From an uncultured Latescibacterota bacterium (GTDB lineage Bacteria; Latescibacterota; UBA2968), in the NCBI GenBank assembly GCA_951812755.1, contig OX638329.1, positions 5,729,563 through 5,793,562 on the forward strand: a stretch of DNA of 64,000 bases, in the 5' to 3' direction. Below the pieces are notes generated by a model. That model searched no databases. It worked only from the letters and a program-made list of their open reading frames with translations, and was not told the origin of the DNA. Positions 3,371-28,798 of this stretch are shown one piece after another. Made by a program: the position numbers and the translations under genes. Each line of letters opens with the position of its first letter. The stretch's first letter is position 1.

Positions 3371-3507
3371 AAGATCTCCTCAACGAATAGACGAATAGAC
3401 GAATAGACGAAACGGGGTACAACTGGTTCAGGCCGGTTCATCAATGCACGTCTCACACATCAATGCTAAAAAAACTCTACATGTCGTTGTACCGCAACAT
3501 TAAAATT

Positions 3508-3690
3508 ACGCGATGTGTGACTTTAAAAATAAATACGCTATACACCCTGTCATGCTGAGGAAGCCGCTAGGCTGACGAAGCATCTGTTACTCATGCACAC
3601 TGTTGAGGCAGCAGATTCTTCGACTCCGCTGCGCTCCGCTCAGAATGACAGTGCTCATTTGACCTTTGACCTTGAAGTCACACATGACGT
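3508..3690. mobile_element. MITE-like element, family A copy 1 (183 bp)
   Basis: The ends are inverted repeats: ACGCGATGTGTGACTT on the left and AAGTCACACATGACGT on the right. It is flanked by a 7-bp direct repeat TAAAATT (3501-3507 and 3691-3697; 9 bp if the end is shifted by one). Copy 2 at 8665-8847 has the same length and nearly the same interior, which carries the TTCGACTCCGCTGCGCTCCG repeat. No transposase is encoded. Confidence 0.85.
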
Positions 3691-3716
3691 TAAAATTATA
3701 GCGATCAGAAAAAACC

Positions 3717-3808: not shown

Positions 3809-5116
3809 TCATGGATGCAACCTGTTGGGCGTACGAGACAAAAAGGTAGTCTCGCGCACAGAGGGCAACCCGAGCATAACCATAAGCAGGCGCGACAAGC
3901 CAAAACCAAATCCCCCGTGTGGTGGACATCCGTATTTAAAAAAATCGAGATAAAACTGGATAACCTCTAAATCCAGCCCCTTCTCTCTCGCCTGCGCCCT
4001 CAACACATCGGGACGGTGTTCGCGCTGCGCCCCCGTAGTGATCTCCACACCATGGCAGAGCAGGTCAAAGCTCCTGGTCAACTCAGGGGGTTCTGCATGA
4101 CGCATGTGATAAAATGGCCGCACAGACACCGGGTAATCTATCACAAAGACATAATCGCACCCCCGGGTTTTGCGGATATATTCCCCGAGCAGACGTTCTC
4201 CCTTTGGATCGAGATCGCCTTCCCGCTCTGGCGTGTGGCCCAGTTCAGACAACACCGCCAATGCCTCGGCCATTGTAACGCGCGGAAAAGGCAGCGCTGG
4301 CACCGCAAGTTCAACACCGCAATTTTCGGCAATAGCGTCACCGTGTCTTTCCCGCACAGCATAAATGACATGCTGAAGCCACGCTTCTTCAAATGCCATC
4401 ACATCCTCCTGACTATCAATCCATGCGATCTCGACATCCACACTGGTAAACTCTGTCGTATGGCGCGAGGTAAACGAGGGATCGGCGCGAAAAACGGGCG
4501 CAATCTCAAACACGCGATCAAAACCAGACGCCATTGCCATCTGTTTGTAAAACTGGGGCGATTGCGCCAAATAGGCTGTGGTATTGAAATACGGCAGCGC
4601 GAACAACTCAGCCCCCGACTCACTGGCTGTACCCATGAGCTTGGGGGAATGAATTTCGATAAAATGATTCTGCATCCAATACTCGCGCATAGCCCCTTCA
4701 ACAGTAGTTTGTACCTCAAAAATCAACCGATTGCGCGGAACGCGAAGATCGAGATGTCGCCAATCCAGCCGATGGTCAATACCCGATGCATTTTCGGAAA
4801 ACGGATCCAGAGGCAATGGCGATTCAGCTACATTGACAACACTCAGTTCCTCAAGCTGAATTTCAACACCACCCAGACGAACACCTGGATTTTCGACAAC
4901 GCGTCCACTTATGGCTACCGCCGATTCTCGCGTGAGAGCAGAAACCCGCTCTGCCAACGCCCCTGTCTTTTCATGAACAACCTGTACACTCCCCGTGCGA
5001 TTTCTCAAAATGAGAAATTGGACATGCTTCTGATCGCGCAGGGTATGCACCCATCCGTGAAGGGTAACGGTTTGACCGATGTGCTTGGACAGTTCAGATA
5101 TTGCAATGTATTTCAT
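3809..5116 (-). CDS. aspS: Aspartyl-tRNA synthetase, archaeal type, probably non-discriminating
   Basis: 435 residues: an N-terminal OB-fold anticodon-binding domain (about 1-105), then a class II catalytic core with motif 2 around FEIAPVFRADPSFTSRHTTEFTS and motif 3 HGGFGFGLSRLLM. The length and lack of the bacterial GAD insertion place it in the compact archaeal AspRS/AsnRS group. Residue 24 is His in GWVHTLRD; in archaeal AspRS, His rather than Trp here is associated with charging both tRNA-Asp and tRNA-Asn. Such an enzyme would need GatCAB to amidate Asp-tRNA-Asn. The start ATG follows AAAGGAA. It sits behind an attenuator. AsnRS is the main alternative. Confidence 0.85.
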   Translation of the reverse strand: MKYIAISELSKHIGQTVTLHGWVHTLRDQKHVQFLILRNRTGSVQVVHEKTGALAERVSALTRESAVAISGRVVENPGVRLGGVEIQLEELSVVNVAESPLPLDPFSENASGIDHRLDWRHLDLRVPRNRLIFEVQTTVEGAMREYWMQNHFIEIHSPKLMGTASESGAELFALPYFNTTAYLAQSPQFYKQMAMASGFDRVFEIAPVFRADPSFTSRHTTEFTSVDVEIAWIDSQEDVMAFEEAWLQHVIYAVRERHGDAIAENCGVELAVPALPFPRVTMAEALAVLSELGHTPEREGDLDPKGERLLGEYIRKTRGCDYVFVIDYPVSVRPFYHMRHAEPPELTRSFDLLCHGVEITTGAQREHRPDVLRAQAREKGLDLEVIQFYLDFFKYGCPPHGGFGFGLSRLLMVMLGLPSVRETTFLSRTPNRLHP

Positions 5117-5222
5117 GACAGATTCCTTTTGATTTCAGGTAATGTGGAAAAGATGCTTCGACTCCGTTTCACTCCGCTCAGCATGACAAAAACGCCAGAC
5201 ATGCGTAACGTCAGTCAGACAC

Positions 5223-5258
5223 AAAAAAAGCCCGTTGTCGAAAAATATGACAACGGGC
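5223..5258 (-). terminator. Attenuator terminator upstream of aspS
   Basis: On the minus strand GCCCGTTGTC, a 9-nt loop and GACAACGGGC form a perfect 10-bp stem, followed by seven T. It lies between the leader peptide stop (5283) and the aspS start (5116). The upstream segment containing ACGGGC (about 5297-5302) can pair with GCCCGT of the terminator 5' arm, giving a plausible antiterminator. Confidence 0.85.
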
Positions 5259-5282
5259 ACTTTCATGATGGCACAAGACGAC

Positions 5283-5372
5283 CTATGCCGGTCCAGCCCG
5301 TCGCCGGATCGGATTATTATCGTCATTATTATTGCCAGTGAACTGAGCAATTTGGAAATAGTGTATATGCAT
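5283..5372 (-). CDS. Asn/Asp leader peptide of the aspS attenuator
   Basis: A 29-codon ORF. The ATG is at 5370-5372 and the TAG at 5283-5285. The middle reads TGNNNDDNNPIRRRAGPA, so five Asn and two Asp codons lie in seven consecutive positions. The terminator hairpin begins 24 nt further on, followed by aspS. This is the design of ribosome-mediated attenuation: slow decoding of Asn/Asp codons would favour antitermination and raise synthetase expression. The ATG lies inside the target duplication of a MITE (5374-5548), which has separated it from the upstream gene; no strong SD is visible now. Confidence 0.75.
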   Translation of the reverse strand: MHIHYFQIAQFTGNNNDDNNPIRRRAGPA

Positions 5373-5373
5373 G

Positions 5374-5548
5374 ACGTGATGTGTGACTTCAAAACCGCCA
5401 CATAGTAATACCGATAAACAGATATAAGAAAGTCAAAACCACTGGATTGCGGCTAACACCCTGCCGCAATGACGGCTCTAAAATCCTTGTTTTTCTGACC
5501 ACTGATTGCTTGTTTTCTTCACCATTATTTTAAAGTCACACATGACGT
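5374..5548. mobile_element. MITE-like element, family A copy 3 (175 bp)
   Basis: Ends ACGTGATGTGTGACTT and AAGTCACACATGACGT, flanked by the direct repeat ATGCATG (5367-5373 and 5549-5555). The termini match copies 1 and 2, but the interior differs and carries a REP-like palindrome (about 5442-5474, ATTGCGGC..GCCGCAAT). It lies between the methyltransferase stop (5560) and the aspS leader peptide start. Confidence 0.85.
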
Positions 5549-5559
5549 ATGCATGGTAT

Positions 5560-8650: not shown

Positions 8651-8664
8651 ATTAATCTCACTAT

Positions 8665-8847
8665 ACGCGATGTGTGACTTTAAAAATAAATACGCTATAC
8701 ACCCTGTCATGCTGAGGAAGCCGCTAGGCTGACGAAGCATCTGTTACTCATGCACACTGTTGAGGCAGCAGATTCTTCGACTCCGCTGCGCTCCGCTCAG
8801 AATGACAGTGCTCTTATGACCTCTAATCTTGAAGTCACACATGACGT
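8665..8847. mobile_element. MITE-like element, family A copy 2 (183 bp)
   Basis: Ends ACGCGATGTGTGACTT and AAGTCACACATGACGT; flanking direct repeat CTCACTAT (8657-8664 and 8848-8855). Almost identical over its length to copy 1 at 3508-3690 but in a different target. This is strong evidence for movement rather than segmental duplication. Confidence 0.88.
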
Positions 8848-25140: not shown

Positions 25141-26826
25141 TCAAACAGATACAATGCGGATATCAACCTCAAATACACTAACGGGATAATTTATACCCCA
25201 GGTTTCGAGAACGCTGGGATGCACTTCGCCAATAAGCCCATAAACGCGCTCGCATATCCGGATCTCGCCACTGCGACCAGGCAAAAATGTGGGATGATCA
25301 ATCGGCGCAATAGTATATTCGAAATTAAAATAATAAGATAACACCTCGAGATAGCTCTGAACGCCAGACAAATTGGCTTCGTCACTCGCTTCGAGCGCGC
25401 AAAGATGAATATCTGTACGCGTGCCGTAATTCTCCCCGGGATCGAGAACCCCCACCTCACCCACTTCAAAAATCCGATGCGGGTACAGCGCACGGCGGCT
25501 TGTCGCCTCGGTCTTGAGCAAACCGGGCAGCAGCGATCCTCGAATCGCGCTGTAATTTTCGGACATGGGATTTGAAATCGAAATAATTTTTGCATCCGGA
25601 TTATTCATATCCACGGTCTGTTCTTTTTGAGAACACAGAATAGGCAAAAAGACCTCTTGAAATCCACCCCCAACCATGAGATTGCGAAATCGGTCTGCGA
25701 GATCCTCTTCTGGCGCGGCTTTGCCAACCGTAAAATCCCGGGGCATCTCGGGTTCAAAAGCCTCGTATCCCACACCGATCACAACATCTTCCACAATATC
25801 TACGGGATGCAAAATATCGTCGCGATAAGGTGCTGGACACACGCTGATACGACCGCCCTGTACATCGATATCTCGATAACCCATTGCCGTGAGTGCGGTC
25901 TCAATCTGCCCCATTGAAATATGTGACCCAACCACTTTGTAAATCTCATCTACATCCACCTGCACTGGCTCGGTCAGATCATACGGACAGGTTAGAACAC
26001 GCCCTCTTGGCGTGTGATATGGATAGCGCACAGTTACGGGATAAATGCGACCGCCCCGGTCAGCCATATTGACCGCCATAATCGCCATAGACAGGAGAAT
26101 AGCATCGAGTTCAGGCCCCGTTGCTTCGCAAAACAAAAACGTATCTCCCACTTCAACGCGCCCCAGACTCTGGCTATTAATCACGGGAGGCAGGGAAAGA
26201 ACCTCGCCGCGCGAATCGCGGATCAGGGGAAACTTATCCTTACCCTCGAGAAGATGTGCATACATCCTGCCCGTGGGATGATCGGACAAAATTTGTCGCA
26301 AAGACATCTCTTCCTCAAACTCCAGAGGGACAAAAGCTGTCGCATCGGGATCAACCGCATCGTATCGCACCGGATACACAATATCGGACGCATCGTAAAT
26401 CCCAATCGCAACAACGCTGCGACCACGCCCATACCCATCGGCGAGTTTTTCCTGCGCCTCGATAAGCGCGTCCAGTGCTGCTTCGTCAATCGCAATACCT
26501 TCACATGCAAAAGCGGCAATATAGGGACGGATATTTCGCAACCCGGCATCGACAATAACCTCCCGTTCCTGCGACATTTCAGATGTATCAAAAAAAGAAT
26601 AGTCCAGCTGAATATTCTCCCGATGGCTTTTGAGCAACCGCGCAAGCCCCTCTGCCGACCAGAGATCGGGACGATTGGTATCCTTGAGCTGAATGCGAAG
26701 CGTATCCCCATCTTCTGCATCGATTTCTGCCTTGGCAGTTTCAAGTGCAGCACTCAGGCCCTCTAAAGAATAAGCCTGCCCTGCGAGACGTTCAAAATCG
26801 GGTTTATTAACTGTAATCGTTGGCAT
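25141..26826 (-). CDS. pheT: Phenylalanyl-tRNA synthetase beta subunit, archaeal/eukaryal type
   Basis: 561 residues, shorter than the roughly 800 of typical bacterial PheT. It lacks the N-terminal tRNA-binding (EMAP-like) and C-terminal anticodon-binding domains, as in archaeal and eukaryal beta subunits. B1-like N terminus (MPTITVNKPDFERLAG), B3/B4 editing region (about 110-260), B5 domain and the catalytic-like core are present. It pairs with PheS to form the heterotetramer that charges tRNA-Phe. The ATG follows AGGAATAAAAA. Confidence 0.92.
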   Translation of the reverse strand: MPTITVNKPDFERLAGQAYSLEGLSAALETAKAEIDAEDGDTLRIQLKDTNRPDLWSAEGLARLLKSHRENIQLDYSFFDTSEMSQEREVIVDAGLRNIRPYIAAFACEGIAIDEAALDALIEAQEKLADGYGRGRSVVAIGIYDASDIVYPVRYDAVDPDATAFVPLEFEEEMSLRQILSDHPTGRMYAHLLEGKDKFPLIRDSRGEVLSLPPVINSQSLGRVEVGDTFLFCEATGPELDAILLSMAIMAVNMADRGGRIYPVTVRYPYHTPRGRVLTCPYDLTEPVQVDVDEIYKVVGSHISMGQIETALTAMGYRDIDVQGGRISVCPAPYRDDILHPVDIVEDVVIGVGYEAFEPEMPRDFTVGKAAPEEDLADRFRNLMVGGGFQEVFLPILCSQKEQTVDMNNPDAKIISISNPMSENYSAIRGSLLPGLLKTEATSRRALYPHRIFEVGEVGVLDPGENYGTRTDIHLCALEASDEANLSGVQSYLEVLSYYFNFEYTIAPIDHPTFLPGRSGEIRICERVYGLIGEVHPSVLETWGINYPVSVFEVDIRIVSV

Positions 26827-26952: not shown

Positions 26953-28494
26953 TTACCGCGTATTCCTGATCAGATCCAAATCCGTACTGAACAAATCGCG
27001 GATATCGTTAATACCCAGCGCGACCATCGCCATTCGATCAACCCCCAACCCCCAGGCAATAACGGGCACATCCACACCCAGTGGTTGCGTAAGCTCAGGC
27101 CGAAAAAGACCCGCACCGCCGAGTTCAATCCAGCCGAGAACGGGATGCTTCGCCTGAAGTTCGACCGAAGGCTCGGTAAAAGGAAAATAATCGGGCACAT
27201 AGCGCACGTCGTCGGCCTGCGCGATCTCAAGAGCGAACAGCTTGAGCAAACCGAGCAAACTGCGAAAATTTATTTCCTCGCCCAGAACAATACCCTCAGC
27301 CTGAAAAAAATCTGCCGCGTGCGTAGCATCGACATCATCCGGCCGAAAGCAACGCGCAAGGGCGAAATACTTGCCCGGGATATTCGGCTCTGAAGCGAGC
27401 GCACGTCCCGAAAGCGCAGTGCCCTGACTTCGCAAAATAAGGCGGCGCGACTGTGCGGGATTGAATTCATAACGCCACCCACGCGAACCTGTCTCGCCCC
27501 CGTTTTGATGCGCCTCAGCCACCCGGGAAAAATGCGGTTCCTCGGCTTCTCGAGACTGCGTCGGCTCCGTAACATAATACGCATCGTGAATATTGCGCGC
27601 CGCGTGGAACTGCGGCATAAAAAGGGCATCCATATTCCAAAATTCGGTTTCAACCAGCGAACCTTTCATCTCTTCAAAACCGAGTGCCATCAACCGGCGC
27701 CGCACATTGTCCAGATAAGCCCGATAGGGATGGTGCTTCCCTATAAGCACCCGCGGCGGCTTAATCGACAGATCATATCGGCGAAAAGACGCACCCTGCC
27801 ATGTGCCTTTCTGAATCATTTCGGACGTAAGACGAGAAATTTCATCGCCCGTGAGATTGGCTTTAACAACCTCCACAAGCACGCGCCGCCCTTCTTCCGT
27901 CAGACAATAAATCCGCTCCGTGCGCTCGTCTAAACGAACAGGTCCCCTGCCCCCGCCGCGTTTGCGGGCGTTGGCCTGAATATATTGGACAATATCACCG
28001 GGAAAATCACCGATCTCCATTTCGGTATCGGAAAATTTCGCAAAAAGTTCCGGTATAAGCCGATCAACGAAAAAAGAAGCGCGACCTGCATCGACAATAA
28101 CAATAGCCCCTTTGTCCAGATCGATAACCCCATCCTTTTTCAAACCGCCAAATGCACTACCCCAGGCACCTCTGTCAAAACGCTCGTCGGCTTGCAAATC
28201 TTGAATCCCAACGCGCTCTGCGCTCGCCCGGATCAAAAGTGCCGTCTCTGGCGTCGCGCCCTTTGAAGCAAAATCCCGTCCCACTTCCGTAAGCGAAACA
28301 GTCACGCGCGTATTTTCTCCAGTAACTTCGAGTAATTGCTTGGAAATCAGCCACTCAACCGCGCGTCGAACCTGTCCCTCGCCGAGACCCGCGCCACTTT
28401 GAAGTTGTGCATCGGACTGCTCGGCACTGGCATTATTCTTATATACACGCAAAATGCGAATTTCGAGAGCATGTAAAGATGCGAGATCAATCAA
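26953..28494 (-). CDS. pheS: Phenylalanyl-tRNA synthetase alpha subunit, archaeal/eukaryal type
   Basis: 513 residues against about 340 for bacterial PheS. The extra N-terminal part (about 1-200) has winged-helix modules (EIRILRVYKNNASAEQSDAQ and VRRAVEWLISKQLLEV), as in archaeal/eukaryal PheRS alpha. The class II core has motif 2 near FHAARNIHDAYYV and motif 3 GLGVDRMAMVALGINDIRD. A TTG start at 28492-28494 is chosen: GGAG lies 6 nt upstream, and earlier codons overlap the T-box terminator. It is controlled by a Phe T-box. Confidence 0.92.
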   Translation of the reverse strand: MIDLASLHALEIRILRVYKNNASAEQSDAQLQSGAGLGEGQVRRAVEWLISKQLLEVTGENTRVTVSLTEVGRDFASKGATPETALLIRASAERVGIQDLQADERFDRGAWGSAFGGLKKDGVIDLDKGAIVIVDAGRASFFVDRLIPELFAKFSDTEMEIGDFPGDIVQYIQANARKRGGGRGPVRLDERTERIYCLTEEGRRVLVEVVKANLTGDEISRLTSEMIQKGTWQGASFRRYDLSIKPPRVLIGKHHPYRAYLDNVRRRLMALGFEEMKGSLVETEFWNMDALFMPQFHAARNIHDAYYVTEPTQSREAEEPHFSRVAEAHQNGGETGSRGWRYEFNPAQSRRLILRSQGTALSGRALASEPNIPGKYFALARCFRPDDVDATHAADFFQAEGIVLGEEINFRSLLGLLKLFALEIAQADDVRYVPDYFPFTEPSVELQAKHPVLGWIELGGAGLFRPELTQPLGVDVPVIAWGLGVDRMAMVALGINDIRDLFSTDLDLIRNTR

Positions 28495-28522
28495 GAGAAA
28501 CTCCAATGTTAGTATAGAAAAC

Positions 28523-28790
28523 AAAAAGCCCCTTCGTCATCATAGGGACGAAAGAGCTTTTCCGCGGTACCACCCTATTTGCGCTTAAAAGCACCACTCA
28601 GTAGATGGCTATCACCATCCTGTCCATTGTCGGCGGACTCACCGGCTCGGCTTAATAGGAAACAGTCTTTCCATTCGGCTTTGCAGCTCAAGAGGGAACT
28701 TCACCTGTGCATCCTGCAGATGTGCTTTCAGCCCAGAACACATCCTCTCTGTCCAGTTGGGAACAGGCTACTTTTCTCCGTCATCACTTT
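28523..28790 (-). ncRNA. T-box riboswitch (tRNA-Phe sensing) upstream of pheST
   Basis: The diagnostic T-box AGGGTGGTACCGCGG lies at 28576-28562. Stem I has GATGACGGAGAAAAGTAG, CAGAGAGGATG and GGGCTGAAAG; the specifier loop reads GTGAAGTTCCCTCTTGAG, giving UUC (28698-28696), a Phe codon. The terminator is a GC-rich stem (28528-28557) with T5. Uncharged tRNA-Phe should pair with UUC and the T-box bulge, form the antiterminator and switch on pheST. Confidence 0.93.
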
Positions 28791-28798
28791 GAAGGCAA

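Follow-up and report, generated by a model that had tools for sequence, protein, structure and literature searches.

How is an auxiliary aspartyl-tRNA synthetase (AspRS) controlled in a bacterium that already encodes another? This question is raised by aspS2, which lies on the minus strand of the window (the whole stretch of 64,000 nucleotides analysed here) and encodes, as judged from its open reading frame (ORF), family models, and PDB relatives, an archaeal-type aspartate--tRNA(Asn) ligase of 435 amino acids (3809-5116). Upstream of its likely ribosome-binding site (AAAGGAATCT, 5120-5129), on the same strand, the ORF list contains a 29-codon leader, MHIHYFQIAQFTGNNNDDNNPIRRRAGPA (5283-5372), in which seven consecutive codons, AAT AAT AAT GAC GAT AAT AAT (5313-5333), encode NNNDDNN. 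The leader is followed by a terminator (5258-5223) with the order GCCCGTTGTC-ATATTTTTC-GACAACGGGC-TTTTTTT. Its 5' arm (5249-5258) and 3' arm (5230-5239) form a perfect 10-bp stem, and its tract of seven T (5223-5229) lies about 106 nt from the aspS2 start (5116). It was not picked up by a consensus terminator scan because its loop is longer than 8. The first-pass annotation had described this arrangement of Asn/Asp leader ORF, perfect terminator, and downstream aspS, and all of its parts are present. The leader has no match to any known RNA family in an Rfam search, nor does the T-box model (RF00230) match at the aspS2 leader; the sole T-box in the window precedes pheST-like genes, not aspS2.

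Conservation of the leader with aspS2

Among Latescibacterota, the leader and the terminator are found in all 12 genomes that have aspS2 of this family, representing two families and six lineages. These 12 include the window's own genome as well as three (G009, G014, and G018) in which aspS2 is apparently frameshifted or internally deleted. The leader is kept even between lineages whose AspRSs are 66-67% identical. No genome was found in which aspS2 of this family is retained and the leader is lost, and the comparison with related genomes that had been proposed earlier shows both the Asn/Asp run and the terminator to be conserved. With the same layout in 12 of 12 genomes, the arrangement is not a product of chance.

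The pattern NPI[R/Q]RRAGP of the leader peptide was searched in 84,980 genomes, and short-ORF matches with aspS2 downstream are found only in Latescibacterota. Most of the 24 GTDB matches to the pattern lie inside long ORFs or in chance ORFs without aspS2. Within the phylum, 11 of 64 genomes have the pattern (reversed control, 0). Distant archaeal-type AspRS genes (G047, G051, and G055; 40-43% identity) have no such leader within 330 nt upstream, and no leader with an Asn/Asp run is found before the asnS, gatB, bacterial aspS, or AsnB genes examined.

aspS2 is patchy in its distribution and is decaying in several lineages. In G012 it carries stops, and its leader is degenerate as well (NPIRRRRHP). 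Another short Asn-rich ORF, MLDNNRNNNDRNETPERGV, stands with this degenerate leader in front of the decayed gene, and the two are possibly tandem, decaying attenuators. In G004 (C19:3908-3933) the leader and terminator are intact, aspS2 is gone, and a second terminator-like hairpin follows; such an orphan leader may reflect either a recent loss of aspS2 or a role of the leader independent of it.

The codon run and the RRAGP ending of the leader peptide

The leader peptides are NNNDDNNPIRRRAGPA in the window genus, NNNDDNNPIRRRAGPAYA in G013, NNNDDNNPNQRRAGPA in G014, DHNNDEHNPIQRRAGPKCA in G017, DHNNNHHGPIQRRAGPIDG in G018, and NHNHNDHNPIQRRAGPIYA in G019, each followed by a stop codon. The N/D run is seen in every lineage and Asn is its commonest residue in each. 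Within the run N, D, and H interchange, and in the second family His codons are interspersed, while Asn at codon -12 relative to the Gly of RAGP is invariant across the six lineages. Nearly all codons of the run are NAY (Asn, Asp, and His), and sensing of queuosine was considered on this ground; it was rejected, as Tyr is absent and the regulated gene points to Asn/Asp.

A feature absent from the first-pass annotation is the conserved end of the peptide. All leaders except the decayed one end in RRAGP followed by one codon (window genus and G014) or three (G013, G017, G018, and G019). In the window, the RAGP codons lie at 5289-5300, with the stop one codon further, and the motif is of the SecM type (PMC12992588, PMC10987492). 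Across the six lineages the N-terminal part of the leader is unconstrained (pN 0.63, pS 0.61), and A-G-P has 0 nonsynonymous differences in 90 sites against 26 synonymous differences in 45 (pS 0.58). The Ala codon is GCT, GCA, GCG, or GCC and the Gly codon is GGA, GGT, GGC, or GGG, with the residues unchanged. RRAGP is thus conserved as amino acids, which suggests nascent-chain arrest as a second stall opposing that at the codon run.

Both SecM and Bacillus subtilis YwcI arrest through RAGP; the YwcI ribosome stalls with the Gly codon in the P-site, and the motif is under-represented in bacterial proteomes (PMC12992588, PMC10987492). Most RAPP-like sequences assayed stalled inefficiently (PMC10987492). 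Because RAGP alone is often insufficient for stalling, its arrest in this leader is something that we infer. The supporting residues of SecM, FxxxxWIxxxxGI, are absent from the leader, which has NPI(R/Q)R in their place. Since other RAPP peptides rely on unrelated upstream residues (PMC12992588), this absence rules out membership in SecM but not in the class of arrest peptides. In the window's own genome this is the only leader found with RAGP, a stop, and a terminator; one other match lies within control noise, and the scan used CGN for Arg, so that AGR would be missed.

Alternative RNA pairings and the position of the ribosome

An ACGGGC segment had been noted earlier as able to pair with the 5' arm of the terminator. 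The pairing is confirmed, and the full duplex is 10 bp long (GGCGACGGGC:GCCCGUUGUC, -18.7 kcal/mol). Its 5' strand, here called strand 2 (5296-5305), overlaps the RAGP codons, and it competes with strand 4, the terminator 3' arm, for strand 3, the terminator 5' arm. To measure how unusual such a duplex is, the peptide was held fixed and synonymous codons were drawn by local usage. In the window genus, G013, G017, G018, and G019, no more than about 1-2% of the recodings equal the observed 2:3 duplex; these are not five independent tests because G017, G018, and G019 are related. The exception is G014, whose aspS2 is internally deleted and where 43% of recodings match. Terminator stems of 10-14 bp with T tracts are present throughout, and the paired sequences differ by lineage.

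Strand 2 can also pair locally with strand 1 in a 'protector' hairpin of the CCG.AUCCGGC-GACGG-GCUGGA.CCG type (5288-5312). By the same recoding test the 1:2 hairpin is significant in the window genus and in G014 (0.007 and 0.008 of synonymous recodings are as stable); G017 and G018 show it weakly, and G013 (0.49) and G019 (0.62) do not have it. Note that the A-G-P codons form part of this hairpin in the window genus, so their conservation there could partly be at the RNA level.

The alternative stems were folded, and the predicted folds switch as attenuation requires. With a ribosome stalled on Asn and strand 4 not yet made, the free RNA is predicted to fold into the antiterminator; with a ribosome arrested at RAG, it is predicted to fold into the terminator. 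When strand 4 is included, most of the Asn-stall folds relax into the terminator, so switching has to rest on kinetics, as it does in attenuators already known.

For the geometry, the E. coli ribosome footprint is taken to span -12 to +15, counted from the first base in the P-site. Relative to the Gly codon, strand 2 occupies nt -13 to -2 in five lineages and -9 to +2 in G014. Arrest at RAG, with Gly in the P-site, would therefore put strand 2 under the ribosome fully or to all but one nucleotide in every lineage, and stalls at most Asn codons would leave it exposed. A ribosome at the stop codon would cover none of strand 2 in G013, G017, G018, and G019 (four of the six lineages) and about half or more of it in the window genus and G014. 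The lineages with the nearby stop are also those with the significant protector hairpin. Since a ribosome arrested there would cover strand 2 and one at the stop often would not, RAGP arrest is favoured as the effector of the OFF state, at least where there is no hairpin.

A proposed two-stall attenuator

aspS2 is very probably under attenuation, whether or not RAGP takes part. The earlier proposal of Asn/Asp-codon attenuation of an AspRS gains support from the conservation of the leader, the terminator stems rebuilt in different lineages, the codon choice, and the joint decay of leader and gene in G012. The best single reading, to which we lean, is a complete two-stall attenuator. A shortage of Asn-tRNA (or Asp-tRNA) would stall the ribosome on the N/D codons, strand 2 would be free to pair with strand 3, no terminator would form, and aspS2 would be transcribed. 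The Asp-tRNA(Asn) made by AspRS2 would then be amidated by GatCAB, restoring Asn-tRNA(Asn). When charged tRNAs are ample, the ribosome would reach RAGP and pause with Gly in the P-site; by occupying strand 2 it would allow the 3:4 terminator to form, and aspS2 would be off. In the window genus, the local 1:2 hairpin may assist the OFF state. Each stall, the formation of Asp-tRNA(Asn) by AspRS2, and the regulation itself are deduced from sequence, and the RAGP arrest is the weakest step. That the arrest motif gives the OFF state, rather than the stop codon or the protector hairpin, and that what is regulated is tRNA-dependent asparagine synthesis carried by an AspRS, is a more specific claim on which we are evenly divided.

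A possible though doubtful alternative is an ordinary ribosome-mediated attenuator of the trp/his/pheST kind, in which the OFF state is given by the ribosome at the stop codon or by the 1:2 hairpin and RAGP is incidental or kept for pairing. It agrees with the window genus and G014, where the hairpin is significant and the stop is one codon past RAGP, so that during termination the ribosome would hide roughly half of strand 2 or more; pairing also favours CGG CGG. It fits poorly in G013 and G019, which have no hairpin and where strand 2 would be uncovered once the ribosome stands at the stop codon. The Ala and Gly codons, which each run through four synonyms with the residues constant, also speak against it.

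The enzyme and a possible route to asparagine

AspRS2 scores above the cut-offs of two NCBIfam models for aspartate--tRNA(Asn) ligase, NF003483 (496 bits, cut-off 353) and TIGR00458 (398 bits, cut-off 368). In the PDB it is closest to archaeal AspRS and to Thermus AspRS2. The same genome encodes an additional, bacterial AspRS, making aspS2 the second AspRS gene. The anticodon-site residues of the non-discriminating type are His and Pro. By alignment, the specificity residues of AspRS2 are mixed, with His at the position of Thermococcus kodakarensis W26 and Arg at that of K85. The mixture of Asn and Asp codons had been taken to match an enzyme charging both tRNA-Asp and tRNA-Asn. According to the family model this is likely; the enzyme is, however, an auxiliary archaeal-type AspRS with mixed anticodon-site residues, and the claim stays at likely because the genome also has AsnRS and a bacterial AspRS.

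Besides AsnRS, the genome encodes GlnRS and GatB, and its tRNA-Asn has U1-A72. It has no match to AsnA and no recognised AsnB, the best AsnB-like protein reaching 109-132 bits where the cut-off is 267. Deinococcus and Thermus obtain Asp-tRNA(Asn) from a second AspRS, which is archaeal (PMC4206432). The gene set found here is that of bacteria that make Asn on tRNA, so AspRS2 plausibly serves tRNA-dependent asparagine synthesis, and Asn control codons would make sense for such an enzyme. Two members of the genus (G005 and G006) have neither aspS2 nor AsnB, so AspRS2 is not the sole possible route to Asn; G013, G017, and G019 carry AsnB as well as aspS2. An asparagine-synthase-like protein of 595 amino acids is also encoded in the window's own genome (L098:507-2291, near G000:C1:3462300). 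It is under every family cut-off and may be either an Asn synthetase of an unusual kind or a lasso-type cyclase, a point of relevance to the argument for the Asn route.

The same attenuator could instead serve stress or antibiotic resistance, with a spare AspRS induced upon inhibition of the main one, in the manner of TrpRS1 of Streptomyces coelicolor. That aspS2 is auxiliary, patchy, and decaying in several lineages would suit such a role; Asn codons exceed Asp codons, and the gene set suits tRNA-dependent Asn synthesis, which makes it unlikely. This estimate concerns the role of the gene, is compatible with either attenuator described above, and overlaps with the confidence placed in them.

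A quite improbable explanation is that the whole of NNDDxNPIxRRAGP is an arrest peptide, its polar run touching the exit tunnel, and that the signal is not tRNA charging. About 7-13 residues separate the run from the P-site Gly, close to the spacing at which SecM W155 and I156 act, and the interchange of N, D, and H suits amino-acid chemistry as well as codons. Yet Asn outnumbers every other residue of the run in all lineages, strand 2 would be exposed during stalls at most Asn codons, and reading the run as codons predicts the gene that is regulated, an Asp-tRNA(Asn) ligase by the family model. Finally, a chance ORF that lies beside a terminator belonging, without relation to it, to the methyltransferase gene upstream can hardly be the answer: near relatives do have the leader ATG a few nucleotides past the methyltransferase stop, but the leader is conserved in a second family, is constrained at the coding level, and has a codon-selected antiterminator.

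Comparison with known leaders

The E. coli trp, his, and pheST attenuators likewise have a short ORF with a run of the relevant codon, a terminator, a competing antiterminator, and an aminoacyl-tRNA synthetase or biosynthesis gene. Leader-peptide attenuation of an auxiliary synthetase is also found in Streptomyces coelicolor trpRS1, where the leader has Trp codons; it differs in these codons and in its role in antibiotic resistance, TrpRS1 being indolmycin-resistant. In Clostridium acetobutylicum, a two-codon Asn/Asp T-box senses tRNA-Asn and tRNA-Asp upstream of gatCAB-aspS and controls a non-discriminating AspRS. The T-box binds tRNA directly, without translation, whereas the aspS2 leader has no T-box match; if the proposed mechanism is true, it would be a translation-based counterpart of the two-codon T-box. 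We know of no attenuator described for AspRS2 of Thermus or Deinococcus. Their AspRS2-GatCAB pathway resembles the present gene set in having an archaeal-type second AspRS with AsnRS, GlnRS, and GatCAB (PMC4206432). In bacilli, His leader peptides are found ahead of hisS/hisZ paralogs (PMC2965389). From these and from trp/his/pheST, the present leader differs in its Asn/Asp codons (with some His), its archaeal-type AspRS, and its conserved RAGP end. The Shewanella aspS leader is predicted as an RNA structure only (PMC2659441).

SecM and YwcI (RAGP) and ApdA and ApdP (RAPP) are likewise short upstream ORFs (uORFs) with a conserved C-terminal motif (PMC12992588, PMC10987492, PMC10951233), and here too few residues follow the motif. 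The differences are that the downstream gene is not of the Sec/YidC kind, that the W/I contacts of SecM are absent, and that arrest is predicted to lead to transcription termination, not to exposure of a ribosome-binding site. The copper-responsive uORF CruR, with RAPP, also has an arrest motif near the uORF end that governs downstream transcription termination; CruR depends on Rho, senses copper by CXXC, and prevents termination by arrest, whereas the aspS2 leader has an intrinsic terminator and a predicted effect of opposite sign (PMC9426467).

In the open literature, outside which most subscription papers lie, neither an Asn/Asp leader for an AspRS nor an attenuator joining a codon run with RAGP or RAPP was found, and the present leader would, provisionally, be the first attenuator known to control an AspRS through an Asn/Asp leader peptide. 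If the two-stall model is true, codon-starvation attenuation and nascent-chain arrest, which are usually studied separately, are joined on one leader. It would also point to a concrete, non-secretory role for RAGP and to a way in which a tight attenuator can do without a protector stem.

Neighbourhood of the locus

A MITE-like insertion of 174 bp (5374-5547), recognised from its sequence and by comparison with near relatives, sits between the stop of the methyltransferase gene and the leader ATG. It has terminal inverted repeats of about 20 bp and an 8-bp target duplication (CATGCATA, 5548-5555 and 5366-5373), and in near relatives the site is uninterrupted. The insertion may have displaced the ribosome-binding site of the leader and could thereby weaken or alter the regulation in this strain. 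Three such elements (3507-3690, 5374-5547, and 8664-8847) of about 174-184 bp share terminal inverted repeats (TGTGTGACTTTAAAA). The window also contains, at 1936-2335, six tandem copies of a repeat of about 71 bp with a CTGGATCGCGGCT...GCCGCGATGACGG palindrome, and single copies are scattered at 3712, 5435, and 10541.

Elsewhere in the window, a further synthetase operon has a tRNA-sensing leader of its own, which differs in kind from that of aspS2. A T-box leader (28541-28793, minus strand; RF00230, 103.7 bits) lies directly upstream of apparent archaeal-type pheS (26953-28524) and pheT (25141-26826), as judged by sequence and length.
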